Below, in pieces: positions 7,701 through 47,164 of a DNA stretch of 64,000 nt. The position numbers were made by a program, and so were the translations under genes. The DNA comes from Impatiens glandulifera. Its lineage: Eukaryota; Streptophyta; Magnoliopsida; Ericales; Balsaminaceae. Positions within the stretch are counted from its first letter, which is position 1. Every line of letters begins with the position of its first letter. The notes beneath the pieces are model-generated. The model did not search any database and was not told where the DNA came from. It saw nothing but the letters and a program-made list of their open reading frames with translations. The stretch covers positions 40,178,320-40,242,319 of the forward strand of contig NC_061866.1 of NCBI RefSeq assembly GCF_907164915.1, in the 5' to 3' direction.

Positions 7701-10700
7701 TTACAAATTTCTTATTAAGCATAATGGAAGTTGGTTTTCTTTAGCATTCACTTTGACATATAAATACAGTAAAATAGGAAAGCATTCATATTTGCTCATT
7801 TATTTCTTCCACCATCTAAGCATTATACAGAAATTATGGCTTGCTTCTCTAAAATGCTTTAAGATAAAGACATTCTCCTATGCAACATCCTCTAATTGAA
7901 TTAAATGGTAAAATCAATGTCCTTGAATTGGGACAATGCCTTAAAGATGTCTTGATGCATGTTTTCTTATTTCTTAACTTTTTGGATCTATTTACAGTTC
8001 TATTCAATGTTATTGGCATTCAAAGATTTGTATTCTCCTCTGAGGTTGACTTTTGATCGATTTAATTTTGGCTTGACTATGCTGCCCATTCTTGTTTATG
8101 CAATCTGTACTTGAGATAACCTTCTTATTTCAGATTTCCCTGAAACTATTTCTTTACCATTATTTAAACTTTCAATAAGCCTTCAGTTAACTTTCTTAAC
8201 TTCAATTTTCTTTTTGGTATCTTTATCATGTCAGTGCAATAAGCTTCCCAGTCACTTCCAAATTCCTTCATGGATAAGCTGCAAATTTGAGGCTAATGCT
8301 CAACGTCCTTTCAATAATGAGTCTGACAGTTCTGTAGATATGGACGTGTTTGATGATGTTTATGAGAATAATGATTCCAGTATTTCTGAGAAAGGTGCTA
8401 CATGAAAGCTTGTGGAAATGTTTATATATTATATTCCCTTCATTTATCTTCTTCCTCATTGCTTAGAAATAACTGGTTTTCCATCTGTATTCAGGCACTT
8501 CCATTGCCTCATCAAGTCATTCATCTGGATCTTTAATAACTAATCGTTCTCATGTGGCGAGAAGTTCTCGAAAGGGATGGAAAAGGCGTTATTATTTGCA
8601 GCAAAAAGCTCGCCAGGAACGTTTAAACTGCAGTAGGAAGTGGAGAAATGCCGACGATATTAATAAGCCATCGACAGCTAGACCATCTGAGAGCAATGAG
8701 CCATGCAAAGAAAATGTTCTTGAATCTGAATCTCTTAAAGAGACTTCTTTGGTCATGCTATCTGACAACAATACCAAAGAAATATGCCCTAAAGCAGTGT
8801 GTGATGAATTACTTATTAGGGTAGAGGATGGGGGTACAAATATTGTCGACTCTGGTGAAATATGTGAAGAAACTGAAAATAACTGTAAAGAAGATGATGA
8901 TGAATCTTTGGATTCTATTGGCAATGCTTCTGATTTTCATGGAAAAGATTTATCATCCCACTTTTGTAACAGCTCTTTTACTACAAAAAGGCATGGTGAT
9001 GGAGATCTTGATAATCCGAAACCTAGCAAAAGGAGACCAGTAGATGATAACTCAGATATCTCATGCAAATATAGTAGCACTTCATTTTGTGGCATTGATG
9101 ACCATCTGCCTGATGGCTTTTATGATGCAGGGCGAGATCGGCCTTTCTTACCACTGCATAGCTATGAACAAATTTCCTGTCTAGATTCACGTGAAGTGAT
9201 CCTTATGGACAGGTATTCTATCTGTTAGCTTTTAGTATTTTGTCATATACTGATAATTTTTACTGCCGTCTTTGTGAATGTTATTATTTTGAAATCTAGG
9301 AGAACAGATGAGGATTTGGATGCAATTGTTCTATGTGCTCAAGCACTAGTTTTTCATTTCAAGCAGTTCAATGAATCCAACAGAGAAGATGGAGAGTCTT
9401 ATTTTGACAACTTGCAGATCGCATCATTACTTTCTCTTTTTGTTTCTGACCACTTCGGAGGAAGTGACAAGACTGCAATCGTTGAGAAAGCACGGAAATC
9501 TGCATCTGGTTCAAATTATAGAAAACCATTTGTTTGCACTTGTCCAACTGGAAACAACTGCAATATAGGAAGACACAGAGAACAAATCATAGGCGGCTCG
9601 ACAGAAAACATTCTTTTGTTTGATCTATGTGAGAGGTCTCTTCAGTCCATTAAAGCCAGAAGGAATTCTGTTGTTGTTCCTATTGGTGAACTCCAGTTTG
9701 GTGTGTGCAGACATAGAGCGTTGCTTTTAAAGGTAATGGGTTTTGCATGTGTCCTCATTTCCAAATATTAGTTTGTTAGGCTACTTCTGTGATATTTATC
9801 TGACAAAATCTTTACTATTGTAGTACTTATGTGACCGGATCCAGCCGCCAGTGCCATGTGAACTTGTCAGGGGCTACTTGGACTTTTCACCTCATGCATG
9901 GAATGCTATTGCGGTGAAGAAGGGTGGCCACTGGATTCGCATGTTAGTTGATGCATGCCATCCTCACGACATAAGGGAGGAAACAGATCCAGAGTATCTT
10001 TGCAGGTTAATTCTTCTACATTATCCTTTCACTTGCTCCTGATCTTGTTCTGACACCAGAAATATAAGTGCAGTTCCTCTTACTAGTTATTTTTTGATAT
10101 ATATTATCTAGTATTGATATATAAGAGGTTGTTTGGTTTGAGATTTTTGATAGAAGCGATTCTAGTAAATGGATTTTAAGATTGATTTTGTATTTATTTA
10201 TTTACAAAATATAAAATTGAAAATTAAATATAGATAACTAGTACAAATGGACTATTAATTTCTTAATAAATTAAAAGTAATATCATTTCATAATAAAGTG
10301 CTTTTTTCGGAGAAGTAATTCTGTCAATTGTAGAATCCCAATCAAACAAAGCCCAGATGAAACTTCTCAGAGTCAATGATTTTCTTTTCTAAAGATAGTT
10401 AAGTGATGTGTTGCACTCTCTTGTATCAACTGGTAAATTGCTCCTAAGCATCCACTACAAAGTTTTCTTTGGTCATTTAGAAAAAAAATCATTAAAGGGA
10501 TGGGGAAGGGTGACGAGTTGGTGAAGTTTTATTCTGTTTACTTTTTGTACATGCATTCCAGGGTAAGGGTTAGGTATTGTGTTGCCAGTCTGGCTTACAA
10601 ACTATGAGTACTTTTTTAATCTGTATTTCTATACATCTTCACAATTGGGACATGCTCATTTTAGGTACATTCCATTAAGTCGGATTACTGTTCCAATAGA

Positions 10701-13700
10701 TGCTAAGAGTGCCTCTTTGTCCTCTCCACCATTTCCTTCTTTGTCTATGAGCAACAAAATTGAAAATCAAGGTTCAAGCACTATCATCAGGTGTGAACTG
10801 GGATCAATTAAGGCAGTAGCAAAGGTATGTTTCTTATTATCTTGTAGTCTTTATTCATTGTACTTCTTGAAATGAAAGACACCAAATATTTTGCCTTATC
10901 AACAAAATATGATGCATTAAATGTATATATATATCCTTACAACTTTGATTTGGAATCCCTTTTTTTCCTTCTCTTCTATATATGGTCATGAAGGCTATAA
11001 TCCACGACCTTGTGGCAATGAGCCTTGCGCTCTACCACTTTGAGGTGGTATCTTTCCGCTGAATTTTTGAGACTTCATGCTTGTTTCAGGTTTTGTCACA
11101 GGATATGCAAGTATGGTGTAGGGGTTGTTTGGTAACTAGTTGAGTAAGTTATTAGCCTATAAATACTAATGTGACGGTAGTGGTAGGATATGTATAGGGG
11201 TAATTAGTAGATATGTATAGGGGTAGTATGGTAATTAATATTAATTTAGGGATAGTATGGTAATTAGTAGAGTAGTTTAGTGGGTTAGTATTAAGTAGTT
11301 TATATATGGTAAAGTTTGTAACATTTCTATGGCTTAGACCATTTTCTATTTTCTTCAACAGATCCTAGATCTCTAGGCTGATACATAACATGTTTACATT
11401 TTGTTAGAATTCTAGATACAAGAAAGACCTTACTATTGTGGTATTTGACTAGAAATTGCTTAGGTTTGTTGTTAAGTACTTGAATTTTGTGTTACTTATC
11501 TCTATGTAGCCCTCAAATACAGGCATTTACTTGTAATTGTTTCCAAAACCTCTATTAATAATCTCCTTTTGTTTTACATAGTCTAGGTATGATCTCATAG
11601 CTTATGTTCTAGGGTATGGTTACCTCTCTTTTGTTGCCTCCTCCCAGTGGTAGGCACCCTATTTAATGCTAGCCGTGGAATTATCAAACTTGACCCATTC
11701 CAATGAATCCTTTGCCTTTCCAAGAAAATTGTTGGGAGTGGATTGTCTTCCCAACAAAAGAACATTTATATTATCTAGGTAGCAGTTTTTATTATTATTG
11801 TCTTCTAATTTCTATGGTTGTTATGCAGTTCCTATTACTTTTTCTTTTAATCCATCCTCTTTACCTATTAAATGACTTCAGATTTGTTGGGTTTAAGTTT
11901 TAAGAAAGGGATATGATATTTTTTCTTGACCTATATTTTTATCCTAGTGAAATTAAAAGAGTTTTTTAATGTGGTTATGAGAGGGACATATTACAAAATA
12001 TAGAGGGTGATTTATAGATTTTAGTATAAGTTATAATGTGATGAGATAGATAAAGAAAATGGTTTCTTTGTAGAAAGTTCAAATGCAAATATTATGCCGA
12101 AATTTATATTCTGCCGAACTTGGAACAAATCCAGTATGCTCTTACTTACTGCTATGACTGGTTATTGACTGCATAATAGATCCATGATATAGGCGGTGTT
12201 TGATAATACAACTTATGACTTTATCTAAATAAATTTGTGTTCTTTGAATTAAGTTAATTTATTAACTCTTATTTAATTATTTAGATTCAACTTAAATTAA
12301 GATAAGAAGTCTGACTTTCTTAATTCTGTAAGCTATGGACTTAGCTTGGTAATCTAGTTAGAGTGTCCACAAGACAACTTTAACCCCTGAAAATGAATCA
12401 AATTATGCCATTGTAACGATAAAATAGTCTTTAACTACTTTTCCGATATTAGTTCCCATTTTATCGAATCAACTTACATACCAAATACTTTATTTATTTT
12501 TTGATATTTTTGTTTTGTTATTCAACATTTATTTTTCATTGACTTAACTCGTTTGGCACTTAAAAATTCAATATTCAACAATTAATTTTCAGTTTTTCAA
12601 ACGCACTCTAAACTTAGGGTTCTACGGAGTGATGCTGCCCTCTAGCAATTCTTCTAGCAGCCCTTTAACTATTTTTCTAATTGAATTATGTAAAAAGAAG
12701 TGATCGGATGCTTCTGGTTCATCTGATGTTTGCAGGTACGAACACTGGAAGTAAATGGGACTACTTCAGAGGATATTAGGAACTTTGAGAAACAATGTTT
12801 GGGGGAAGTGAGGATTTTAAATGCCTTAAAGAAACATGATTGTATTGTTAGAAGTTATGGACATCAGTTGTCTATGAAATGGATCCCAGCCTTAGATGGG
12901 AATCCAGAGCAAAGAATATTGCAGTCTGCTGTATTATTGGAGCACATAAAAGGCGGTTCATTGAAGGTAACTTTTCTCCTAGGTTTTATTATGATCTGAT
13001 ACTACTTTCCCCCCCTTATTTTGTGACAATTTGATGTGCATTGTTGTATAGAACTATTTAGAGAAATTATTAGTGGAGGGGGAGAAGCACGTGCCAGTGG
13101 AGTTGGCCTTAGTTATTGCTAAAGATGTTGCATCTGCTTTGGTGGAAATGCATTCTAATCACATCATCCATCGTGATATAAAGAGTGAGAACATTTTGAT
13201 TGATCTTGAAAGTAGACGCCCAAATGGAACGGCGGTTGTAAAACTGTGCGATTTTGATAGATCAGTTCCTCTTCGATCCTTGTTGCATACGTGTTGCATT
13301 GCTCACTTTGGGATACCTCCACCCAATGTTTGTGTTGGCACACCACGTTGGATGGCACCTGAAGTTCTTGGAGCATTGCATGACGATAAAACTTATGGAC
13401 TGGTGAGTCTCTTCCTTTTAATTTTTTTTTCTATTTACCCCTTGTTGAATCATTTTTATTTACTACATACACAATGTTGAGTTATTTGAGTGAGAGTATT
13501 TCTAAATAATCCACTAATCCAATCAACCATTCACTTCTTCAATCACATCATTCATATCATCAATTAAAAATACCAAAATATCCTTACATTATTTTTTATA
13601 ATATATTAAATACTAGGGATAATTTGTTCAGTTTCTCCTCCAAATAATTCACTTTTACATCAAACAAGGCCCAACTATTTCCTCTATTTGTTTGAGATCA

Positions 13701-24647: not shown

Positions 24648-25019
24648 TGATGCGGTGCGAGTCGAAGAGATTGGAAGATAATCTAATTAAGGAAGGGATT
24701 GGAAGATATATTCTAATCAAGGAAAGGATTATAATATATATTCTAATTAAGGAAGAGATTACAAGGGATATTCTAAATTAGGTAGGGATATTCTTGTTAT
24801 GGAAGGAATATCCTAAATTAGTGTAATTAAATTGTAATTAGACGTAATTCCTAATTTAATACGTGTAAGTCCTATAAATACCCTGAAGGTATTCCATTGT
24901 AAGGGAGAAGAAGATTATTAATCAGAAAACGAGGTTTCCTCAATATCTATCGACTTTCGGTATTCGTAAGAATCAACGAATCTTGATAAAGATTCATCCT
25001 AGCCACGCACGCTGCATCA
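24648..25019 (+). repeat. 5' LTR of the gypsy element
   Basis: It is 372 bp and identical to the copy at 27948. A TATA-like CCTATAAATA lies at ~24,870-24,879, so transcription would start in the following ~40 bases. Several internal GGATATTCT and GATATATTCTAAT words are imperfect short repeats. The terminal TGATGC/GCATCA is inverted. Confidence 0.97.
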
Positions 25020-25050: not shown

Positions 25051-27981
25051 ATGCCGCCCCGAAGACAGCCGCGCAACCCTACCCCTGGTGCTGATGATGG
25101 TGACCTTGCTGAGTTGCGACGTGAAAACGCTGAGTTTCGCCGTGATAACGACGATTTGAGGCGGCAGGTTGAATGGTTGACGCAACGGATGGATGCATCT
25201 ATGCACATGCACCACCCTGAAGATGATGTTACGATGACAGATGAAAACCCTTTCGGTGGTCTTCGGAATCGATCCCCTGAACGCCCCAATCATCGCTGGG
25301 AGCAGGCTTTCAGGGTGGACATCCCTAAGTTCGATGGTAGTCTATCACCGGAAGAGTTTATTGATTGGCTTTCTCAGGTTGAAGAGATTCTGGATTTCAA
25401 GGAAGTTCCTGCAGATCGTCGTGTACCCCTTGTTACGATCCGCTTACATGGTCGTGCACAAGCATGGTGGCAGCAGTTGAAACAGACACGTGTTCGTCAT
25501 GGTAAGGCAAAGCTCACGAATTGGGACAAATTCAGGAAGCATATTAGGGCTGCGTTTCTACCATATAATTACGAACGTAACCTGTACCAGCGGTTCCAGA
25601 ATCTTCGTCAGGGTTCTCGTTCCGTGGATGACTATTCCACTGAGTTTTACACCTTTGTGGCTCGTGTTGACCTGTCTGAGTCCCCTCTCCAGTTGGTTTC
25701 TCGCTATATTGGTGGCCTTCGCCTCCAGTTGCAGGATATTTTGAATATGTTTGATCCCTTGACTGTTTCTGAGGCACATCAGCGTGCTTCACAGGCTGAG
25801 AAACAGCTAGCCAGGCGCGGTTCGGGTAGCTTTGGAAAACAGGTTGTCCCCACTAGTGGCATTGGTTCTTCTTCCCAGCCGGCCCATCCCACCCCAGCCC
25901 CCCCTCGCAGCACTACATCCCCCCCGCAGGGACGTCCAGGTGGCTTGCGTTGTTTCAATTGTGGTGAAGTTGGCCATCGCCAAGCAGAGTGTCGCAACCC
26001 AAAGTCCACCAATCGTGGTCTTTTTACTGAGGTGGAGGATCCTGACTCTGCTCTTCCTTCAGATTCAGCCCCAGTGTATGATGTTTATGATGATGAGGCA
26101 GCGGAGGAGTATGTTTCTGGTGATGTTGGCCCCCTTTTGGTGATTCGTCGATCATGTTTAACCCCTCGTGCTCCTGACAACGAGTGGTTACGTAATAATC
26201 TGTTCCATTCCACTTGTACCATCGGTGGCAAAGTTTGCACCTTCATCATTGATGCTGGGAGTTGTGAGAATGTGATTTCTGAGGTTGCAGTTTCGAAGCT
26301 GGGTCTGTCCACTGAACCTCACCCCAAGCCTTATCGTCTGTCTTGGCTGAGTCAAGATTGTGTTGATGCCAAATCAGCCCAAGAAGGGTGCTACCCCCAC
26401 TCATCATGCGCCCCCCCTACCACCTTGTTGTCTCGGGGTCCTTTTCAGACCGCCATGGTCGAATCGGGCATGGTGTTTGCTCCATTTTGTTCGCTGATTA
26501 CCTGTGGTGCTAGTTCTGAGGTGCCTATTCCAGTGCAGCCGCTGTTACAGGAGTTTGCAGATGTTTTTCCTGAGAATCTGCCTTGTGCCTTGCCTCCTTT
26601 GCGTGATATCCAGCATCACATTGACTTGGTTCCAGGTGCTGCCCTACCCAACCGTCCTCATTACCGCATGAGTCCCAAAGAACATGAAGAGTTGCGTAGA
26701 CAGGTGGAGGACTTGCTGGCTAAGGGACACATTCGAGAAAGCCTTAGTCCCTGTGTTGTCCCGGCCCTTCTTACCCCAAAAAAGGATGGGTTCCTTTTCC
26801 GTGGTGTGCAGCTGTGCATTCCAGATTGCAGCCTGCGTTTGAGGATGATTCAGGAACTCCACAAAGAAGGCCATGTTGAGCGTGATCGTACCTTCCAGCT
26901 TCTTGCAGCTTCTTATTTCCGGCCTTCGATGCGCAAAGAGGTGGGGCGTTTTGTTGCTCGTTGTCGTGTTTGTCAGTTGGCTAAAGGCGCTTCGACTAAT
27001 GCCGGGTTATACTTGCCTCTGCCTATTCCCACTCAACCATGGTCTGATGTCAGTATGGATTTTGTCCTTGGGCTGCCACGTACCCAGCGTGGTTCTGATT
27101 CGATTTTTGTGGTGGTTGACCGATTCTCGAAGATGGTTCATTTCATTCCCTGCAAGAAAACCTCTGATGCTGTGGCTGTTGCACAGCTTTATTTCAGGGA
27201 TGTGTATCGCCTTCATGGACTTCCTGCCTCCATAGTTTCTGATCGGGACACTCGCTTTGTGAGTCACTTTTGGAGGAGTCTTTGGCGTTTGGTTAATACT
27301 CAGCTGAATTTTAGCAGTGCCTATCACCCGCAAACTGATGGCCAAACTGAAGTTGTTAATAGGTCTTTGGGGAACCTTCTGCGCAGTTTAATTGGGGATC
27401 ATCCTAAGGCTTGGGATCTGAAGCTGCCTCAGGCCGAGTTTGCTCACAATCATGCTGTTAATCGCTCCACTGGTTTCAGTCCTTTCCATGTGATTTACGG
27501 GCTGTCTCCGCGTGCTCCTCTTGATTTGTTAGCGCTGCCCAGCAAGGTGCGTCCTCATTCCACTGCTGCGGATTTTGTTGGTCAGTTGGCTCAGGTTCAT
27601 CAGACCACTCATGACCGTTTGGTTGCTGCTACTGCCAAGTACAAGGAGAAGGCTGATTCGAGAAGGCGTGCTGTTGATTTTGAAGTTGGTGACTTTGTGT
27701 GGGCTATTCTGACTAAGGATCGTTTTCCAGCTCATGAATATAGCAAGCTTGCTGCTAAGAAGATTGGTCCTGTTGAGATTGTGGAGAAGATCAACCCCAA
27801 TGCTTATCGTTTACGCCTTCCCAGCCATGTGCGTACCTCTGATGTGTTCAATGTGAAGCATCTTGTTCCTTTTGTGGGTGAGTCTTCTTCTGATGAGGAT
27901 GATGCGGTTCCAGATTCGAGGACGAATCTTTTCTACCCTGGGGGGAATGATGCGGTGCGAGTCGAAGAGATTGGAAGATAA
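25051..27981 (+). CDS. Gag-(partial protease)-integrase polyprotein, RT/RNase H deleted
   Basis: This is an uninterrupted 976-codon frame from the first ATG after the primer site. It has a Gag domain (~residues 85-230) and a zinc knuckle at ~305-318 (CFNCGEVGHRQAEC). A protease-like IIDAGSCENVIS has DAG where D-S/T-G is usual, and the protease tail is cut after YRLSWL. The start of RT reads PALLTPKKDG and then jumps directly to the integrase zinc-binding head (LHKEGH...CRVCQLAKG). The integrase core has its acidic residues in SMDFVLGLP, VSDRDTRF and GQTEVVNRS. A GPY/F-like tail (KKIGPVEIVEKI) follows. There is no YxDD box, no RNase H and no chromodomain. The frame runs 34 bases into the 3' LTR. 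GC content is higher than the flanks. Confidence 0.95.
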   Translation: MPPRRQPRNPTPGADDGDLAELRRENAEFRRDNDDLRRQVEWLTQRMDASMHMHHPEDDVTMTDENPFGGLRNRSPERPNHRWEQAFRVDIPKFDGSLSPEEFIDWLSQVEEILDFKEVPADRRVPLVTIRLHGRAQAWWQQLKQTRVRHGKAKLTNWDKFRKHIRAAFLPYNYERNLYQRFQNLRQGSRSVDDYSTEFYTFVARVDLSESPLQLVSRYIGGLRLQLQDILNMFDPLTVSEAHQRASQAEKQLARRGSGSFGKQVVPTSGIGSSSQPAHPTPAPPRSTTSPPQGRPGGLRCFNCGEVGHRQAECRNPKSTNRGLFTEVEDPDSALPSDSAPVYDVYDDEAAEEYVSGDVGPLLVIRRSCLTPRAPDNEWLRNNLFHSTCTIGGKVCTFIIDAGSCENVISEVAVSKLGLSTEPHPKPYRLSWLSQDCVDAKSAQEGCYPHSSCAPPTTLLSRGPFQTAMVESGMVFAPFCSLITCGASSEVPIPVQPLLQEFADVFPENLPCALPPLRDIQHHIDLVPGAALPNRPHYRMSPKEHEELRRQVEDLLAKGHIRESLSPCVVPALLTPKKDGFLFRGVQLCIPDCSLRLRMIQELHKEGHVERDRTFQLLAASYFRPSMRKEVGRFVARCRVCQLAKGASTNAGLYLPLPIPTQPWSDVSMDFVLGLPRTQRGSDSIFVVVDRFSKMVHFIPCKKTSDAVAVAQLYFRDVYRLHGLPASIVSDRDTRFVSHFWRSLWRLVNTQLNFSSAYHPQTDGQTEVVNRSLGNLLRSLIGDHPKAWDLKLPQAEFAHNHAVNRSTGFSPFHVIYGLSPRAPLDLLALPSKVRPHSTAADFVGQLAQVHQTTHDRLVAATAKYKEKADSRRRAVDFEVGDFVWAILTKDRFPAHEYSKLAAKKIGPVEIVEKINPNAYRLRLPSHVRTSDVFNVKHLVPFVGESSSDEDDAVPDSRTNLFYPGGNDAVRVEEIGR
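27938..27947 (+). other. Polypurine tract
   Basis: CTGGGGGGAA directly abuts the 3' LTR. In LTR elements this is where plus-strand DNA synthesis is primed. It lies inside the coding frame, because the frame reads through into the LTR. Confidence 0.8.
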
Positions 27982-28319
27982 TCTAATTAAGGAAGGGATT
28001 GGAAGATATATTCTAATCAAGGAAAGGATTATAATATATATTCTAATTAAGGAAGAGATTACAAGGGATATTCTAAATTAGGTAGGGATATTCTTGTTAT
28101 GGAAGGAATATCCTAAATTAGTGTAATTAAATTGTAATTAGACGTAATTCCTAATTTAATACGTGTAAGTCCTATAAATACCCTGAAGGTATTCCATTGT
28201 AAGGGAGAAGAAGATTATTAATCAGAAAACGAGGTTTCCTCAATATCTATCGACTTTCGGTATTCGTAAGAATCAACGAATCTTGATAAAGATTCATCCT
28301 AGCCACGCACGCTGCATCA
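27948..28319 (+). repeat. 3' LTR of the gypsy element
   Basis: This is identical over 372 bp to the 5' LTR, at a constant offset of 3300 bases. It is followed by the second copy of the GAAGG target duplication. Confidence 0.97.
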
Positions 28320-37130: not shown

Positions 37131-37270
37131 TGCAATAGCACTCGGTGGATTCTTTTCACGTGTAAAAAGGCTTTATCAATGGCCTGTCTACTCTTTACTT
37201 TTCTTTTCTTCTTCTTTTTTGAAAAACAAAAAAATGGGTTCTTTCTTTTCTTTTCTTCTCCCTCTTTAGT

Positions 37271-37418
37271 GGGGAAATTTGACGAAATGACCTTGCAAAC
37301 CGGGTTATTTGACCTGGTGGAATTTTATAATTTTTTTTGCGCTCGTGGTGTTCTATTTTTTTTTATACGATTTTGCCCTTGTCGCGAAACGCTAAGTGAC
37401 TTAGCGTTTCGCGAAGTG
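37271..37418 (+). repeat. Left TIR of the MULE, with internal palindrome
   Basis: It pairs with 46559-46706 with few mismatches. Its inner end is a perfect 33-bp inverted repeat at 37382-37414 (TCGCGAAACGCTAAGT, a central G, then the reverse complement), which contains the element's dispersed motif on both strands. A TATA-like TATAAATA follows at ~37432, so the TIR probably abuts an inward-facing promoter. Confidence 0.95.
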
Positions 37419-37427
37419 GATTAGACG

Positions 37428-37445
37428 TTTGTATAAATACCCAAA
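37428..37445 (+). promoter_or_regulatory. Putative inward promoter next to left TIR
   Basis: GTATAAATACCC just inside the left TIR is followed by a CT-rich leader (TCTCTCTCTTCTCC) and a GGCGACGACGGCGG-type GC-rich patch. The equivalent position at the right end has a TATA-like box and a similar CT-rich and GGCGGCGGCGAC leader for the transposase. TIR-adjacent promoters are usual in MULEs. Confidence 0.55.
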
Positions 37446-37931
37446 TAATTTCATTTCCCTAAATTTTTTTCTCTCTCTTCTCCAATTCTCTCCTTCACTC
37501 ACGGGGGCCGGCGACGACGGCGGCCGGCGGCGACGACGTCTCCGTTTCCATACAAATCAAACCCGATCCGAGCTCTTCTAACCTAACTAATTCATTTATG
37601 TTTATCTATTGCCGATTTCTAACCCTAGATCTATTTTGCATGCAGGTTTCTTATACTAGGGTTTATGTGATTTCTCCGATTCTAACTATTTGAACGGCGT
37701 CGAGGTAGATCTTCATTCTAACAGTTATGTTCTTGTTTAGGCTTTCTTCATTTCATAAACCTTTTCATATTTCCTTTATGTCCATCATTTTCTCCGTTTT
37801 GTTGATTCTTATTGCTGATATGGTTCATATTGGTTCATGTTTGAGCATTTCGTTAGGTTATTATTTGTTATTTGTTCATAATTGCTGAAAATCTATGTCT
37901 GATAAGAGCGTATGTGTTTCCGTTTCAGATC

Positions 37932-38050
37932 TGCTTACCGTTTCGCTACGGACTTACCGTTTCGCTACGGACTTACCGTTTCGCTACGGACTTACCGTTT
38001 CGCTACGGACTTACCGTTTCGCAGTATACCTCGCGATTCGCTAAGTATCA
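37932..38050 (+). repeat. Motif array A (19-bp period, 6 copies)
   Basis: TTCGC anchors stand at 37942, 37961, 37980, 37999, 38018 and 38037, exactly 19 bases apart. The unit is CTTACCGTTTCGCTACGGA; the last copy is CGATTCGCTAAGT. It lies in the leader region upstream of the DUF1985-Ulp1 gene. Confidence 0.95.
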
Positions 38051-38086
38051 AGATTTTTTGTTATTTATAGTTAATCATGAACTTCA

Positions 38087-38388
38087 TTTGACTAGGTATT
38101 TACATCACTTCATGGTTATGAAGAGAACATGTGTTAACAAAACAAACCTTCTAATTTTACATTGTAAACATTTAGATTCTTCAGAAAATGCCTTTGAAGA
38201 ATCTATCATTGACCTCCAGATAAGAAATAAATTTCAAACAATTTTCTCTTATCTGGAGTTCAATGATCGCTTCTTCAAAGACTTTTTCTGAAGAATCTAA
38301 ATGTTTCCATGTAAAATTATAGGGTTTGTTTTGCTAACACATGTTCTTTTCAAAACCATGACTTTGTTGTTGATACCTTGTCAAACGA
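38087..38388. repeat. Long inverted repeat (foldback) inside the MULE
   Basis: Arms at about 38087-38225 and 38248-38388 are inverted copies with modest mismatch. Examples are CTCCAGATAAG / CTTATCTGGAG next to the loop, CATTTAGATTCTTCAG / CTGAAGAATCTAAATG mid-arm and CATGTGTTA / TAACACATG further out. The loop is ~22 nt. A transcript from the TIR-side promoter would form a ~140-bp imperfect duplex. No coding sense is seen in the arms. A chance overlap with a 139-codon frame is ignored. Confidence 0.85.
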
Positions 38389-38445
38389 GATAGATTACCT
38401 ATGAAACCAATAAAAAATTTTGTACTTGACGATTCGCTAAGTACT

Positions 38446-38542
38446 ACGAGCTCCAGCTAGGAGAATGGTTTGAATTCGATTTCGTTATTAAAATATATTA
38501 GCGAAAACGTATTCAAACCATCTTCTCTTAGCTGGAGCTCGT
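38446..38542. repeat. Second, MIRNA-sized foldback
   Basis: Arms of ~30 nt at 38446-38475 and 38511-38542 (ACGAGCTCCAGCTAGGAGAA against TTCTCTTAGCTGGAGCTCGT) are separated by ~35 nt. The stem shares CTCCAG.TA words with the tip of the larger foldback, so the two are probably related. It matches no mature miRNA that I remember. Confidence 0.7.
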
Positions 38543-38715
38543 TGACCTCCCGATTCGCTAAGTCCCTCCCGATTCGCTACGTCCCTCCCGATTCGCTACG
38601 TGTCTCCCGATTCGCTAAGTCCGTCCCGATTCGCTAAGTCCGTCCCGATTCGCTAAGTCCGTCCCGATTCGCTAAGTCCCTCCCGATTCGCTAAGTGCCT
38701 CCCGACTCGCTACGG
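38541..38715 (+). repeat. Motif array C (19-bp period, 9 copies)
   Basis: Anchors run from 38554 to 38706 in strict 19-base steps. The unit is CCCTCCCGATTCGCTAAGT with CCGTCC and GTCTCC variants. A single extra copy lies at 38433. The array ends just before the putative promoter of the DUF1985-Ulp1 gene. Confidence 0.95.
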
Positions 38716-38749
38716 AAGTTGAAGAGACGCGCGTACTCACACGCGCTAG

Positions 38750-38878
38750 ACCTTATATATTCAAAATATTAAGAACATTTCATTTCAACCGCCCGACTCT
38801 CTCTCTCTAACCCATTTTCTCTTCACTGAATCTTGTCAAGCTCGATCATTTCTGCTTTCTTCTCGTTCGTGGTTAAGG
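38750..38878 (+). promoter_or_regulatory. Putative promoter and leader exon of the DUF1985-Ulp1 gene
   Basis: CTTATATATTC (38752-38762) resembles a TATA box. It is followed by a CT-rich leader (CTCTCTCTCTAACCC) and a donor-like GTGGTTAAG|GTTAG near 38,878. The acceptor TTTTGTAG sits directly before the ATG at 39441. This implies a leader intron of ~560 bp carrying arrays D and E. Confidence 0.5.
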
Positions 38879-39024
38879 TTAGTTCATTATCATTTTCTGC
38901 TTTTTTGTTCATTGGTGGTTTTTGCATGTTAGTGTAATGTTAAGTGTTTCTGTTCAGTATATATTTTTCGCCAGTAGGGTTTCTGTTCAGTATATTTTTG
39001 TTTGTTGTCATTAGGGTTTCATTA

Positions 39025-39385
39025 GGGTTTCGCTAGGTACCTTCCGATTCGGTAAGTACCTTCCGATTCGGTAAGTACCTAGCGATTCGCTATACCTAGT
39101 TGTGGCCGATCATTTTCTGGTTTTTTGCTTATGGATTTTGGTCTTTGCATGTTAAGTTTAAGTGTTTGTTTCAGATTTTTTGTTTAGGGTTTTTGCATGT
39201 TAAGTTTATTGTTGTTTCTGATTAGTTTCGTATTGTTTCCGATTCGGTAATGCTGTCTTATGTTCAGTTAACGGCGGTTTCGCTCGGTACCTCTCGATTC
39301 GCTAAGTGCCTCCCGATTCGCTAAGTACTTAGCGAATCGGGAGGCACTTAGCGAATCGGGAGGTGCCTCCCGATTCGCTAAGTTC
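39025..39385 (+). repeat. Motif arrays D and E with a 64-bp perfect palindrome
   Basis: Array D has anchors at 39029, 39048, 39067 and 39086 (19-bp steps; two copies read TTCGG). Array E (39243 and 39280-39385) holds copies in both orientations. Within it 39295-39358 is a perfect 64-bp palindrome whose half contains two motif copies. All lie in the presumed leader intron of the DUF1985-Ulp1 gene. Confidence 0.95.
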
Positions 39386-39440
39386 TTACGTTTGTATGTG
39401 TTTGTTCGAACATTTTTTATGATGTTGTTTCCTTTTGTAG

Positions 39441-42400
39441 ATGGCAGAAACAACTGTTACTGAGTTTCCCGGTCGGATTTCGTGGAAAAGTGCCCTCACC
39501 CTGAAGAAGATTGTGAATAAGTTCGAGGAAATGGATCTTCTGGAGAGTGTGTACAATACCCAGTTCAGATCATTATTCACAGCCCCCCTCTTGCAGTTCT
39601 CAGGAAGTATTGTTCATCAAATGTTGTTGAGGCGGTTAAGCTCAAACTCCAAGGAGATAACTTTCATGGTGAATGGGCAAAAGCTTGTATTTGGTATGAA
39701 GGAGTATGCGTTGGTTACCGGCCTATGTTTCGGCGTTTATCCTGAGTTGGACCAAGAAAAATTGCGCCGTTGTCCACCTCTCTCGGTTAAATACTTTAAA
39801 GGGAGCATGAGTGTGAAAATGTGCGAGTTCGAGAAGGCTTTTTTCAAATGCAAAGACAAGGAAGATGCATTCAAGATGGGGCTGGTATGCCTGATTTGCC
39901 AGTACATATTCACATTTGACCCAAAAAGAGTTATATTTCCAAAAATACTCAACCTGGTGGAAGACAAGGACACTTTCTTCCAATATCCATGGGGGAAGGT
40001 CACCTTTAGAGCCACCCTCAAGGGTTTAAACAAGAACATGAAACACCTCTGTACCTCATTTTTTGAGAAGAAAAAGTTGGCTGAAGATCCTTATGCTCCT
40101 TTTGCATATAACATCTATGGGTTCGCATTGGCACTTCAAGTGTGGACGTATGAGATCTTCGAAAACTTTATCCCTAAATTCGCCAGAAGGAATGAGATTA
40201 ATGACCCTCTACGCCCAAGGTTGTTACTCTATCATTCCAACAGGAAAAACACATCGATGGAGGTTAAGACTGCTCTAGAGACCACGGATGTGACTGAGAT
40301 GGAAGAGTCCTCCATGGAGAAGAGGTTATACAGTGGTGATGTATTTGAGCAAATCGACGAGACAGCTGATGATTTTTTTGAGGGATTTACTGATGGGAAG
40401 GTAATAAAAGATGATGTTGATGAAGAAGAAGAAGAAAGTGAACATGAAGAAGTTACTCCGATTCCCAAACCTGCCACGAGGAAGAGAAAGGCTGATGCTA
40501 CTCTTAAAGAAGCAGCCAACTTGAAGAAGAAGCTTGCTTATGAATCGATTCCGGCCCACATTCTTACTCCCCCATCCGCGACCTCAAGTCCTCGGGCTGA
40601 CACACCTTCTCCTCGGGCTCCAACACCTACTGTTGGATGTGATTTTAATGAGATGAAGGAGGAGCTGAAAATAGAGTTGAAAGAGGAGATGAAAAAGATG
40701 AAAACAGAGCTCATCAAAGAGCTAAAAATCACAATCCAACAAACTCAACAAACTCACGTTGAGTCGTTCAAGAAGATGGTTTTTAATATGTCCACACAGT
40801 TGTTAGAAAAATCCAACAAAAGGATGTCCATATTATTAACCAGATTAGATGATATGGAGGATAATATAAAGAAGAAGAAGAGTAAGAAGAAGGATTCTAA
40901 GAAGGCTGTGAAGGTTGAAGAGGAAAAGACTACTGAGGTATGGAGATATTGAATTTTGCACTTTACATTTTATTTCGCTAAGTACATATCTGATCTAACC
41001 AGTACATATTTTGCAGGTTAAGGATTCTAAGAAGGATGTCGAAGTTGAGAAGAGCAAGGTTGAACAGGAGGAGGAGAAGAAAGAGGTATTCTGCGAACTT
41101 TTCGTTTCGCAAAGTAGTTTCCGTTTCGCAAAGTAGTTTCCGTTTCGCTAAGTTAGTATTTTTCGTTTCGCTAAGTTAGTATTTTTCGTTTCGCAAAGTA
41201 GTTTCCGTTTCGCTAAGTTAGTATTTTTCGTTTCGCAAAGTAGTTTCCGTTTCGCTAAGTTAGTATTTTTCGTTTCGCAAAGTAGTTTCCGTTTCGCAAA
41301 TTATTTGTTGTCGATTCGCTAAGTGTGAATTTTGTCTATTTTGTAGGAGACTGTGGGGGATGATGAGAAGGTGAATGATGGGACTGATGGGAAAGACGAT
41401 GTAATGGAGGACAATGAGAAGGTGGAGGATGAAAAACAAGAGGACGTTGAGAAGGTGGAGGACGCACAGAAGGTGGAGACCGATGAGAAGGTGGATGATG
41501 ATGAAAAGATGGATGAGGATAAGGTGGAGAACGATGAGAAGGTCGATGATGAAGAGAAGGTGGAGGATGAAAGAAAAGACAACGATGAGAAGGTGGATGA
41601 TGATGAAAAGATGGATGAGGATAAGGTGGAGAACGATGAGAAGGTCGATGATGAAGAGAAGGTGGAGGATGAAAGAAAAGACAACGATGAGAAGGTAGAT
41701 GATGATGAGAAGGTGGAGGATGCGAAGGTGGAGGACGTAAAGATAGAGGTTGAGGCTAAATTGGAGGACGGTGTGGCTAGGGTGGATGATGTGGAGGTTG
41801 ATCTGAAACTGAAGGATTTGAAAGTGAAGGTGAAGGATGAGAAGACTGTGGGGGATGTGAAGGCAAATGATGACAATGATGACAATGACGATTTCCAGTT
41901 ATACAATACTCCTCCTAAAGGAAATTATGGGAGGAGAGTGAGGAAGCCGAAAAAAGATGACTCGTACACCAACCCTTCCTTGTCAAAAATGCCCAAGACA
42001 AAGGATCCTATGAAAGTGAATCACCTTCAAAAATTTGATGATGAGCTACTTCATAAAGTAAAGGCGTGGTTGGATGATCCAAAAACCGATAATTCGACAA
42101 CGGATTTACATACGGTTCAAGCAAAGAAGGAAGTGTTGGTTAGAGTTGTAACAAGGCTTACATGGATTGAAGACGAGGTAAGTCGTTCAAATCAATTCAT
42201 TAATCTTCGTTTCGCAAATTACTCTTCGTTTCGCAAAGTACTCTTCGTTTCGCAAAGTAATCTTCGTTTCGCAAAGTGCTCTTCGTTTCGCAAAGTGCTC
42301 TTCGTTTCGCAAAGTACTTACTTAGTCAATGTTGTTTGATATGTACTCAATGTATGTTGTATGCTCCCATTGTGCAGGAAATCGATGCATTCTGCCATCT

Positions 42401-43049
42401 TCTGCGGAAAAGGATTTCCTGCTATCCCAAAACATATAAAAATACACTTGCGGCAATTGGGGATTGCGTATTGTCGGATAGAATCAGGCGACTGCACAGG
42501 GATTTTATTAAGGATCCTGCCAAATTTCCAGTCGACGAATTCAAAGACTATTATATGGGCGCACCACATAGATATATGCCAGAGTGGTCTACAATTGACG
42601 ACGTCTACATGCCAGTGAACATTAACCAGAAACACTGGATTTTATGTGTAGCACGTCTTCAAAAGTACCGCATTGACGTGTACGACTGTGACGCCTATCT
42701 TTATAAGAATCTGGATCCTTATTTGAAACCCTTCTGCGACATGATTCCATGTATATTCGCCAAAACAATCACTCCCGGTGAGAGGGTAAGGTATCCTAAT
42801 TTCAACTTCGAAGGCCCCCTCCAACCAATGACATACAAACGGTTTCCACACCCCAAAGTGAAAACCGCTGCTCCTAAGGTTGGAGAAGTCCCGCGGGCAA
42901 CAGAGAGCGGGGACTGTGGGGTCTTCACGCTAATGTACATGGAACACTTGACCGCTAATCAACCCGTGCATAATGTGACCTCAGAAAATATGGGATTTTT
43001 TAGGCAGAAGATGGCGGTCCGGTTATTCCATCAGATTATGGAACCTTAA
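39441..43049 (+). CDS. MULE-encoded DUF1985 plus Ulp1-like cysteine protease (1022 aa)
   Basis: Exons 39441-40937, 41017-41085, 41347-42177 and 42378-43049 all join in phase 0. Residues ~25-190 fit DUF1985, a plant transposon-associated domain (VYNTQFRSLF, then FGMKEYALVTGLCFG). A basic/proline stretch and a predicted coiled coil follow (~400-480), then a very acidic D/E/K/V-rich region with an in-frame 102-bp tandem duplication at 41491-41694. The C-terminus is a C48 (Ulp1/SENP) protease with all three catalytic residues: H885 (QKHW), D902 (DVYDCD) and C979 (SGDCGVF). Related Ulp1-like genes are known cargo of Kaonashi-type MULEs, and DUF1985 occurs in VANC anti-silencing proteins of VANDAL MULEs. 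The target (SUMO or another protein) is unknown. Each intron contains copies of the element motif. Confidence 0.9.
40974..40984 (+). repeat. Single motif copy in intron 1
   Basis: TTCGCTAAGTA lies in the 79-bp first intron (40938-41016), so even the shortest intron of the gene carries the motif once. Confidence 0.8.
41100..41327 (+). repeat. Motif array G filling intron 2 (11 copies)
   Basis: TTCGC anchors at 41106, 41125, 41144, 41167, 41190, 41209, 41232, 41251, 41274, 41293 and 41315 are spaced 19 or 22-23 bases apart. The units are CGTTTCGCAAAGTAGTTTC and CGTTTCGCTAAGTTAGTATT. They make up nearly the whole 261-bp intron (41086-41346) and stop short of both splice sites. Confidence 0.97.
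42205..42318 (+). repeat. Motif array H in intron 3 (6 copies)
   Basis: Anchors at 42211, 42230, 42249, 42268, 42287 and 42306 lie in exact 19-base steps, unit CGTTTCGCAAAGTACTCTT. The array lies inside the 200-bp intron 42178-42377. Confidence 0.97.
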
Positions 43050-43159
43050 ACATTATTATTTGTAAATTGGATAACTTATTTTGATGTATTGTAAACCTTG
43101 ATGAATATGTTGGAAGTTGGATTATGTATTGTAAATTATTTTGTGTAAATTGATGTATT

Positions 43160-43312
43160 GTAAATTCGCAAAGTACTCTTCGTTTCGCAAAGTCCCTCCC
43201 GTTTCGCAAAGTACTCTTCGTTTCGCAAAGTCCCTCCCGTTTCGCAAAGTCCCTCCCGTTTCGCTACGTGTCTCCCGATTCGCTACGTGTCTCCCGATTC
43301 GCTAAGTGCCCT
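43160..43312 (+). repeat. Motif array I between the two convergent genes (8 copies)
   Basis: Anchors run from 43165 to 43298 in exact 19-base steps, with a change of unit from CGTTTCGCAAAGT to CGATTCGCTACGT along the array. It sits in the 444-bp gap between the stops of the Ulp1-like gene (43049) and the transposase gene (43494). Confidence 0.97.
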
Positions 43313-43493
43313 CCCCCATCAGATTGATTATATTTTCCATCTGTTTCTTTAGCAACCTTAATTCATTTCTCAATTGAGATTGGATTATATAATGCCAATT
43401 GACAATATTTTAAACAAGCATTAAACCTCAATTAATTAACAACATACCAGTACCATAGTTCAATTAAAAACATATATTACAACATAGTATCTA

Positions 43494-46382
43494 TCAAGCT
43501 AAAGGTTCATATTGTTGAGATGATGAGTCATGCTGCTTAGATGATGAGTCATGCTGCTTAGATGATGAAGCTCGTGCAGTAGATGGTGCAGGCATCACTG
43601 CTTTGCATGTTGCCCTATTATGTCCAAGCCCATCACATGAGCTGCATCGTCTCGGGATCTTACGGACCTCACCCTGGGATGACCTACGCTTTGTTTGTGG
43701 CCTGCCTTTCTTAACCTTCACATTTGGTTTAAGACATGAACGTTGCTTGATATTTTCGGGAACATCCCAATTTTCTTCATCACCGGGAGGATAACATGTC
43801 TCGGCATATGAATTTATCCAACACTCAGTTGTGTAATACCTGTGTGTAGGGAAAATATAACGAATTATTAATTGGTTAAACAGAATGAACACGTGAGCTA
43901 GATATTAATACCTTGAACAGAAGTCATAAGAAACCAAATTCCGACTACGGGCAGCAGCCATTGCATGCGTACAAGGAAGACCCGAAACTTCGAATACTCT
44001 ACAAGTGCAGTTCATGTCTTTCAAATTGACTTTGAAATGGGACTGATTGTCATGCACATAAAACTCGAATCGGTTAAGCGATTGGACTGTATAGAATCTG
44101 GCCTTCTCGAATCCCTCACGTAACACCTTCTCATAATTTGGAGATAAAACTTCTTCGTGATTAGACGCTCTTTCTCTTCTATCGTTAAACCATTGTTGTA
44201 TTGTGAATCTTAAATACTCAGCCATTTCTGAAATGGGATACTTTCTGGCTTCCCTGCTCTGACTATTGAAACTCTCAGCATAATTGCTTGTCAGTTGATT
44301 GTATCGCTTACCGGGAAAAAATGCTCTACTCCATCTTGGGAACCCAATTTCTTCCAAATAGGCAGCAATCCTGTGATCTTTAACCTTGATTTTCTCAAAC
44401 CACCGATTAAATTCTTGGACAGTGTATGCCCTTGAAGCCGAATCAAACTCCGCATGACACTTATCACTTTTAAATTTGGCCACAATATTCATCTTTATGT
44501 GATATGTGCACGCGCCGTGGTCTGCTTCTGGGAAAACAGCGCACAAGGCATTAGCGATGCTTGGGTGTCTGTCGGATACGAAGACGAGATCATCAACTAA
44601 TCCAATTGCGTCTCTCAGTTTTTGCATGAAATAAGTCCAGGAGTTATTATTCTCTGAATCAACAACGCCGAATGCGACAGGATATAGTTGCTCATTCGCA
44701 TCCAATGCAATAGCCACCAATAATTGACCACCCACCTTGTGCTTAAGAAAACTAGCATCAACACATAATACAGGACGGCAAAAGGATTTGAAACCCCTAA
44801 TTGAGAGGCCTAGGGACATGAACATATACTTGAAGTGACCGAGCTCGTCTGTCTGTATGTCGGTTATGGTACCAGGATTACACTTCTCCAACATGTAAAG
44901 GTATGATGGCAGTATTCCATAAGAATCCTCTACCGTTCCTCGCACCGCTATTAAAGCATTTTCCCTTGCCCTCCATGCCTTATTATAAGTCAAAAATATC
45001 CCATAAGTTGTCTGCATGTCTTCAATTATTTTCTTAGGCAAGTGGTTATGATGATGGTCCATGTACTTGCTCTTCACGCACTGCCCAATAACCCATGCTG
45101 GTGTTTGCATTTTTTTCTTGGGCCTCGACAAAGTGGAGCATGAGTGTTGATGCTCAAATGTCCGGATCTCAAACATCTCAGAAAACTTACCTTTCACAGC
45201 CCGCAAGCTCCACTTGCATGTCTCATCCAAACATTTGAGTTCCCAAAGATTTTTCCTTGACTTCTCCACTTTGAATTCAAAATGATTGGCCATCGCATAT
45301 TTATATAGAGCAAGTTGAAGTTCTTTTTTATTTTCAAACAACGAACCGACTTCCAATACGGTTTCACTAGTTAATGCCATCGCAAATGTGGGGTCTGGCG
45401 GTGATGTGTCTGTCGGGTCTGTCGATGGTGTACCCATTGAAGATCGTCTTGCACTAGATGGTGTACCCATTGATGATCTTCTTGCACTTGTTGGTGTACC
45501 ATTATTTGATGCCTTTTTTGCACTAGTTGGTGTACCCAATGATGATCTTCTTGCACTTGGTTGTATAGGTATTGATGCTTTCTCACCACTATTAACATGC
45601 AAGTCCTGAGTAAGTGGGATGTGAGGCAAAGAGGTTTCTCCGGCTTCATTTTGACTTTCAACAAAGAATTCCAAGGGTACAACAGGTGGAACAAATTTCT
45701 GAGTAAGTTGTGGTGGTAGTATACTTTCTTGAGTTGGGTATGTAAGTAGTGGTATCTTTTCTTTAGTAAACGCTGACTTCTCCACTACAGATACACACAA
45801 TGGTGACACTGTTCGACCCAAAATCAAGCGTGATAGATATGTGTTCAAATCCCCATCATTATCAATAAAAACAGGTTTTGGATTTCTGATATTCGGAATA
45901 TCATACTTCACTTGGACCACTAAATCGTATGCTGATAACTGGAGATTAAGTCTATCGTAGAGTATATCAAGTAATTCAGCATAACGAGTACTTTGGGGTA
46001 GATCAAATGTTTTGATTGAAGATGCATCAAAATACAGTATTCCATCAGCATCAAGTTTCCACTCTCCATTATAGAAAACGAAAACTTCAGCTGCAATATA
46101 AAAAACATGATTTGATTTAGAGACGTATAATTAATACTTCGCGAATCGAAAGGCACTTAGCGAAGCGGGAAGTCCTTCGCGAATCGTAAGGCACTTAGCG
46201 AAACGGGAAGGGCTTCGCGAATCGTAAGGCACTTAGCGAAACGGGAAGTCCTTCGCGAATCGCCAGGCACTTAGCGAAACGGGAAGTAAACCCTAACCAA
46301 TCTCAGAAACCGAACATCAATAAAACATGCTTCAAATAGACGTACCTATTGGAACAGTGCTCGTGCACGTCGTCGAGCTCAT
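43494..46382 (-). CDS. mudrA: MURA (MuDR-type) transposase, 853 aa, intact
   Basis: Exons on the minus strand are 46382-46346, 46090-43912 and 43839-43494; the ATG opens a 12-codon first exon (MSSTTCTSTVPI). Domains in order: an N-terminal region with repeated SARRSSMGTP units (~residues 140-200); the MuDR DNA-binding/zinc region (KYAMANHFEFKVEKSRKNLW, CKWSLRAVKG, EHQHSC); the MULE DDE core with CVDASFLKH, then GVVDSENNNSW, VSDRHPSI and HGACTYHIKMN; a SWIM zinc finger (CTCRVFEVSGLPCTHAMAAA); and a CCHC knuckle (CSSCDGLGHNRATCK). It catalyses cut-and-paste transposition of MULEs. There is no stop or frameshift, so it is potentially active. The first intron is filled with element motifs. Confidence 0.95.
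46138..46290 (-). repeat. Motif array J in transposase intron 1 (8 copies)
   Basis: GCGAA anchors (the motif on the minus strand) at 46141, 46160, 46179, 46198, 46217, 46236, 46255 and 46274 lie in exact 19-base steps, alternating between CGATTCGCGAAG and CGTTTCGCTAAGTGCC types. As in the other gene, the motif is in sense orientation relative to transcription. Confidence 0.97.
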
Positions 46383-46511
46383 AGTGGATTTCGAATGAAC
46401 TTCGCCGCCGAGATCTCCCCCGAGTTCGTCGCCGCCGCCGGAGTTTAGAGAGAAGGAGGAGAAGAGCGGGAAGAGAGAGAAGGAGAAGAAAAGAAATGAA
46501 AAAAAAGTACG

Positions 46512-46522
46512 GCGCTTATATT
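46512..46522 (-). promoter_or_regulatory. Putative transposase promoter next to right TIR
   Basis: TATAAG on the minus strand (46520-46515) is followed by a CT-rich leader (TTCTTCTCCTTCTCTCTC) and a CGGCGGCGGCGA patch before the ATG at 46382. This mirrors the arrangement at the left end. Confidence 0.5.
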
Positions 46523-46558
46523 AAATAGTAAGGGCAATCTGGACATTTCACATATCGT

Positions 46559-46706
46559 CACTTCGCGAAACGCTAAGTGACTTAGCGTTTCGCGACGAGG
46601 GCAAAATCGTCCAAAAAAAATAAAATCACCACGAGCGCAATTAAATTATCAAAATTCCACCAGGTCAAATAACCCGGTTTGCAAGGTCGTTTCGTCAAAT
46701 TTCCCC
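46559..46706 (-). repeat. Right TIR of the MULE, with internal palindrome
   Basis: Inverted copy of 37271-37418. It contains the same perfect 33-bp inverted repeat at 46563-46595. Confidence 0.95.
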
Positions 46707-46712
46707 TTTAGT

Positions 46713-47164
46713 GCTTCTCTATCGGTTGTTGGTCTTGGCGACTCTGCACAGTACAATAAAGAAGAAAATAAAAATATATATATTTGTTGATCTGTGTGTA
46801 CCGTGAGGGAGAAAGTGTGTATGTGTGTGTGTGTGAGAGAAATTTAAAAAGCAAAATGATAGACTGAAGAAGAATAATTCGAAGTTGCAGTCCTCTTCTG
46901 CACACCTACGAACTTGTTTGTTTTTTAAATTATTTTGACCATAGTGATTTTTAATCATTTCAAATATTTCTTAGATTTTAATTCATAGTGTTTGGATATC
47001 AACCGGTGACTTTCGGACAGTTTAATTTGGTTTGGTTTGAAAATAAATATGATGAAATTGATAAATAAGAGGTGAAGTTTGTTCCCTTTTACATGTATTT
47101 ATTGAAATCTATTTAAAATTATACAGTTATCATAATCAAATCAATTTGATTATTATATAAAAAT
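46713..47164. other. Former AGO10 upstream DNA
   Basis: This sequence was contiguous with 37,270 before the MULE inserted. It holds a (TG)n-like patch at ~46,817-46,835 and AT-rich DNA, with no gene. Confidence 0.5.

Follow-up and report, generated by a model that had tools for sequence, protein, structure and literature searches.

In Arabidopsis, the accounts drawn on here describe VANDAL21 (Hiun) and its VANC21 protein as a sequence-specific anti-silencing system (Hosaka 2017, PMC5735166; Sasaki 2023, PMC10398659). The part of a further account used here describes KIU/Kaonashi elements, in which eudicot VANC genes have captured an Ulp1 domain and which also hypomethylate their own group (PMC13317346). 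Here we analyse a 64-kb stretch of the Impatiens glandulifera genome (C5:40178320-40242319 of a 653.9-Mb assembly of 1,110 contigs), referred to as the window, which contains a 9,434-bp Mutator-like element (MULE; 37272..46705, no strand assigned) with long terminal inverted repeats (TIRs), a transposase gene and a gene in which DUF1985 is fused to an Ulp1 domain. The element is packed with a short motif of its own family, and we consider it probable that this TIR-bearing, Ulp1-fused MULE carries a self-targeted anti-silencing system of the VANC type.

Allowing up to two mismatches, CGWTTCGCWAAGT matches the window at 67 places, 63 of them inside the element (taken as 37274-46703 for these counts) and four outside, and all 36 exact matches in the window are internal to the element. 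By comparison, 100 dinucleotide shuffles of the element gave a mean of 0.8 matches and a maximum of three. No site at this threshold overlaps the 5,630 bp of predicted coding sequence, and at three mismatches one mostly exonic match turns up. A first reading made from the sequence alone (the sequence-only reading) had put about 65 copies in the element and none in its exons, and these statements, together with the positions it named, are borne out. Forward-strand arrays lie in the leader of the DUF1985-Ulp1 gene at 37939..38046 and 38551..38715 and, within a putative leader intron, at 39026..39095 and 39295..39383 (the latter with an internal inversion), with a single site between two hairpins at 38430..38442 (+). 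The three introns of that gene hold one (40971..40983), 11 (41103..41324, spaced at 19, 22 and 23 bp) and six sites (42208..42315), all on the forward strand; eight further sites lie in the gap between the convergent genes (43162..43307, +), eight in the long 5' intron of the transposase gene (46136..46281, -), and others in both TIRs. At up to two mismatches, no site lies in the short intron of the transposase gene (43840-43912). Orientation had been expected to follow transcription of the gene that hosts each array, which holds for most arrays but not for all.

The 13-bp unit proposed earlier has to be replaced. The real unit is a 19-bp near-palindrome (dyad), ACYTnnCGWTTCGCWAAGT, a consensus built from 58 sites weighted by 14 arrays or single sites as we defined them, and 38 of the 44 same-strand neighbours less than 60 bp apart are spaced at exactly 19 bp. 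In each of three subfamilies, the two halves are most complementary when read in the true register (0.49, 0.78 and 0.58, against 0.40 or less in shifted registers), and the unit of subfamily B is an almost perfect palindrome except for three central bases. Left-right covariation within the dyad is weak.

The predicted exons of the two convergent genes join as open frames through canonical splice sites. The DUF1985-Ulp1 gene (+) comprises exons at 39441..40937, 41017..41085 (placed by joining open reading frames, ORFs), 41347..42177 and 42378..43050, and would encode a protein of 1,022 aa with DUF1985 in exon 1 (residues 68-194, Pfam E 4.2e-20), an acidic tandem-repeat region in exon 3 and Ulp1 (Peptidase_C48, residues 795-1017, E 3.7e-22) in exon 4. 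DUF1985 and Peptidase_C48 are thus found by Pfam within one predicted protein, the combination that marks KIU. An intron in the leader, before the first ATG, is suggested by an acceptor-like sequence. The transposase gene (-) comprises exons at 46347..46382, 43913..46090 and 43494..43839, the first and third placed by ORF joins and the second carrying the Pfam domains DBD_Tnp_Mut, MULE and SWIM, and would encode a Mutator transposase of 853 aa. These are the two genes that ORF reading and Pfam recognise in the element, where a VANDAL would have VANA, VANB and VANC. Coding tandem repeats of 18, 51 and 102 bp at 41405-41737 give the DUF1985-Ulp1 protein its acidic variable region, which is similar to the repeat-bearing variable regions described for VANC.

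The predicted structure of DUF1985 matches the crystal structure of VANC21 with DNA, and fold and sequence profile together indicate homology with VANC and not an independent invention. The sequence-only reading had described a parallel system with a different motif; 'parallel' is too strong in view of this homology, whereas its VANC-type core is supported by the VANC21-like fold and by the joint change of motif and DUF1985 family set out next.

Related DUF1985 elements lacking arrays had been named as a result that would speak against such a system. We examined 11 long loci that represent several DUF1985 families, and 10 of them carry arrays; the exception, L054 (C7:39598275-39608175), has a DUF1985 exon with neither Ulp1 nor transposase detected. 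L042 (DUF1985 identity 79%) retains the motif of subfamily A, to which the window copy belongs; subfamily B (L040 and L041; 74-75%) has arrays at corresponding places, mostly of ACTTAACGCTTCGTTAAGT; family D (L048 and L049; 51%) has dense arrays of CCCACGCC, with one match per locus within the approximate coding interval; family E (L050 and L051; 47-48%) has 21-bp arrays built on CTGTCGCATGCGACAG; and family G (L052 and L053; 45-46%) has the words TTCACGTG and TCGCG, which lie partly within 11 apparent tandemly duplicated exon-intron units of L052. Family G was searched with part of P0007 and own arrays were expected there; these two relatives of P0007 have family-specific words but less clean arrays than expected. 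The motifs of D, E and G were picked once tandem repeats or enriched 8-mers had been noticed in their loci and then counted in all, and those of A and B were likewise picked by inspection; with motifs chosen in this way, the table of motif against family is diagonal except for the A-type sites in B and one G3 match each in L048 and L049. Motif and DUF1985 family change together in the comparison that had been proposed. The array-bearing loci are not all whole elements, because tblastn detects neither Ulp1 nor transposase in L049, no transposase in L050 and L051, and no Ulp1 in L053.

Several side observations were made at these loci. In L050 (6300-7800), a DUF1985-Ulp1 gene and arrays are kept with only a seeming start of the transposase, an apparent deletion derivative. 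Each of the 11 apparent duplicated units of L052 (4550-6200) holds one TGCAATTCGCGCAC, and the arrangement recalls VANC genes, for which tandem growth of exons and introns has been described. The annotated name of P0007 is enhancer of mRNA-decapping protein 4-like. The deposited subfamily-B-like proteins P0003-P0006 are without the DUF1985 core, though in the genome sequence of B the frame of exon 1 stays open across this core, and splicing, predicted or real, may remove the DNA-binding domain.

The comparison among families bears on two other explanations of the arrays. They might be binding sites of the transposase (MURA) that spread from the TIRs into the interior of the element: the site is at its most symmetric in the TIRs, in copies that are kept in subfamily B and in small derivatives, and subterminal repeats of other elements bind transposition proteins. 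Yet most internal arrays of B have switched to ACTTAACGCTTCGTTAAGT while the sites in its TIRs and transposase intron kept the older form, the transposase of L048 is 73% identical although its family D motif is unrelated, and introns kilobases from the ends are filled with sites, so that we regard this origin as improbable. We hold it quite improbable that the arrays serve as enhancers or as sites for a host transcription factor, with DUF1985 doing something else. They do lie near both promoters, mostly in gene orientation, and family G contains CACGTG, which we take to resemble the plant G-box; but a fixed host factor does not predict a motif that changes with the DUF1985 family inside one host, arrays are also found in introns and between 3' ends, and DUF1985 is predicted to fold like VANC21, whose crystal structure includes its target DNA.

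The sequence-only reading required a motif that is no general repeat of the genome, and this holds. Genome-wide, the exact motif has 7,056 matches against 14 for its reversed control. Assignment of these matches covered the 100 places that head the list, every one of them on C1. Six motif clusters among these have no listed DUF1985 copy nearby. Five of the six, all but one near C1:9190048, were retrieved (L043-L047) and all five hold sequence of the window's element family, namely TIR sequence in L044, L045 and L046, transposase intron and TIR in L047, and the leader only, at 77%, in L043. A genome search for DUF1985 gave at least 126 matches, and among the matches listed 12 have 100% identity over 316 residues. 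In the best 30 of the at least 126 loci, arrays are present in the leader of all 30, the motif (up to one mismatch) is absent from the 948 nt of exon 1 in all 30, and intron 2 holds sites in 29, L024 having none there. Array length changes quickly: eleven loci identical over these 948 nt, including the window copy, and one at 99.9% have an intron 2 of 261, 265, 284, 330 or 414 bp. The MULE is apparently autonomous and recently active.

Methylated CpG would be expected to leave a record, and that of the arrays is indirect and mixed as a sign of demethylation. In the window, the arrays have an observed/expected ratio (o/e) of 2.02 for CpG and 0.29 for TpG+CpA, against a CpG o/e of 0.63-0.67 in exons, and in B, D and E, too, arrays have a higher CpG o/e than exons. 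Across 17 distinct older copies, exon 1 shows transitions at 25 of 782 CpG bases and at 65 of 6,103 other C/G, whereas the arrays of 18 older loci (622 units, with four cut by a locus edge excluded) give 7 of 1,236 at central CpG, 28 of 1,236 at outer CpG and 41 of 1,236 at in-motif non-CpG C/G, counts that are not independent since copies share changes through descent. This record fits arrays that escape methylation-driven decay. Functionless, neutral minisatellites would account for the rapid turnover in array length among copies with identical exon 1, and tandem repeats are found in the coding region (41405-41737) as well. Such repeats would not be expected to keep the dyad positions across arrays while other positions vary, to recur in other families, with different sequences, at comparable non-coding places, to have a period equal to the length of the site, or to retain CpGs in most copies examined, and this explanation appears very unlikely.

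A VANC-type system is supported by what was computed: dense non-coding arrays of an own-family motif, open gene models, a predicted VANC DNA-binding fold in DUF1985, motifs that vary by family, fast array turnover and many near-identical copies. Binding and demethylation are inferences, as is any part that the Ulp1 domain may play. In the proposed mechanism, the DUF1985-Ulp1 protein would bind the 19-bp dyad sites through DUF1985, the bound sites being the head-to-tail repeats found in most of the non-coding parts that members of its family have. Such dense binding would remove or exclude DNA methylation and silent marks at the arrays, and arrays kept unsilenced in this way would keep the TIRs accessible and allow both genes to be expressed. 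The motif would diversify jointly with the DUF1985 domain, with the result that each family would read its own arrays.

A number of points weigh against this. Sequence identity between DUF1985 and VANC21 is only 17-18%, and a shared fold alone is no proof of binding to the motif sites. The VANC21/VANC6 motifs (YAGTATTAY; AGTTGTCC and AGTTGTAC), in the published passages drawn on here, contain no CpG and have no stated dyad. The TIRs and transposase intron of subfamily B keep A-type sites, so that either the B protein recognises both forms of the site or the A-type sites have another role; in family G the arrays are sparser and the words several; and no arrays lie in L054, the locus of the P0007 query. 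The high CpG o/e of the arrays follows partly from the motif itself, and selection on the sites or homogenisation could look similar to low CpG decay. In L042 low CpG decay is not seen (3 of 104 at central CpG against 4 of 104 at the non-CpG C8/G12), and young copies have zero changes at both central CpG and non-CpG positions. Finally, the 12 identical copies may not all be separate insertions, because a 13-kb stretch of C2 holds three of them.

The leader of the DUF1985-Ulp1 gene also contains two hairpins, H1 (38084..38388, +; arms about 84% identical, present in related copies) and H2 (38446..38542, +), which have in common a 26-nt word, TTCTCTTAKCTGGAGYTC (88%), and which give a z of -28.4 when folded together. 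Both are found in 30 of 30 A loci, the H1 arms of L022-L039 being mostly further apart than in the window, and both are kept in L042 (z -18.5 and -10.3); no hairpin match was reported in L040 or L041 of subfamily B. H1 and H2 are candidate transposon-encoded microRNAs. One exact-pattern genome scan returned seven places, of which three were placed, each some 1 kb away from a listed DUF1985 copy, and no host target was found in that scan. In rice, as far as the account used here goes, miR820 lies in CACTA transposons and targets OsDRM2 (PMC3459959); the likeness is that of a DNA transposon with a microRNA-type hairpin, known here as conserved hairpins alone. It is conceivable, if doubtful, that one leader serves two fronts, the VANC-like protein freeing its own arrays and the H1/H2 microRNA pair acting as miR820 does, against host silencing or a rival family, with several protein-motif systems diverging in the genome. 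Deletion of the shared word from H1 in 2 of 30 loci (L032 and L034) lowers the standing of this idea. If it were true, the side-by-side protein-motif systems would be a natural key to DNA reading by DUF1985 domains.

The ends of the element are set by the TIR arms and a flanking 8-bp target-site duplication, CTTTAGTG, read off the sequence at 37264..37271 and 46706..46713 (no strand assigned); the span proposed earlier, 37382..46595, was too short. The left TIR (37272..37418, +) has motif sites in both orientations and a palindrome at about 37383-37416, and the right TIR (46559..46705, -) has the same paired sites. Target-site duplications of Mutator-like elements are 8-11 bp, and with its MULE transposase domains, TIRs and duplication the element belongs among them. 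Elsewhere in the window, a single 976-aa open frame (25051-27978) with gag and integrase domains belongs to a Ty3-type retroelement and is flanked by repeats at 24664-24821 and 27964-28121; Pfam gave no reverse transcriptase match in this frame. Fragments at 9229-9768 and 13052-13477, matching EDR1/CTR1 peptidase-like and protein kinase, probably represent exons from at least one host kinase gene.

With about a dozen near-identical copies of the window's subfamily, and with families A, B, D, E and G in one asterid genome having motifs that differ, lie at comparable non-coding positions, all contain CpG and in several cases form dyads, a panel is ready for decoding which DUF1985 residues read which bases. 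It also lets one ask whether cytosine methylation of the site gates binding, and would be useful toward locus-specific demethylation tools. Sasaki 2022 (EMBO J) reportedly describes how combinations of DUF1985, DUF287 and Ulp1, and also motifs, have diversified, and may have anticipated motifs and family diversity such as those found here. What appears to be new is the dyad, the CpG-containing motifs and the presence of several parallel systems in one genome; our literature search returned nothing on such an element in Impatiens.

In the respects covered by the accounts of VANDAL21/VANC21 drawn on here, the Impatiens element resembles that system in its DUF1985 protein, in a short dense motif in non-coding parts with one-orientation arrays and fast-changing tandem repeats, in an own motif for each family, and in a VANC gene that evolves faster than the transposase. 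Unlike VANDAL21, it has long matched TIRs with motif sites also inside them, its 19-bp dyad motif contains at least two CpGs, its protein has an Ulp1 domain and no DUF287 among the Pfam matches, and its host is an asterid. With KIU/Kaonashi it shares DUF1985 fused to Ulp1 in a MULE, a fusion already known in eudicots; the cases covered in the part of that review used here are non-TIR MULEs, with no Impatiens element or dyad motif among them (PMC13317346). VANDALs of the non-TIR kind have TIRs that are absent or degenerate, whereas the TIR arms here (37271-37418 and 46559-46706) are 148 nt long and 90% complementary. Some elements grouped with VANDALs do have TIRs, according to the portion cited of PMC6446971, so that the long TIRs exclude the label 'non-TIR' but not kinship. 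This suggests that VANC-type systems can also occur in elements whose TIRs are not degenerate.

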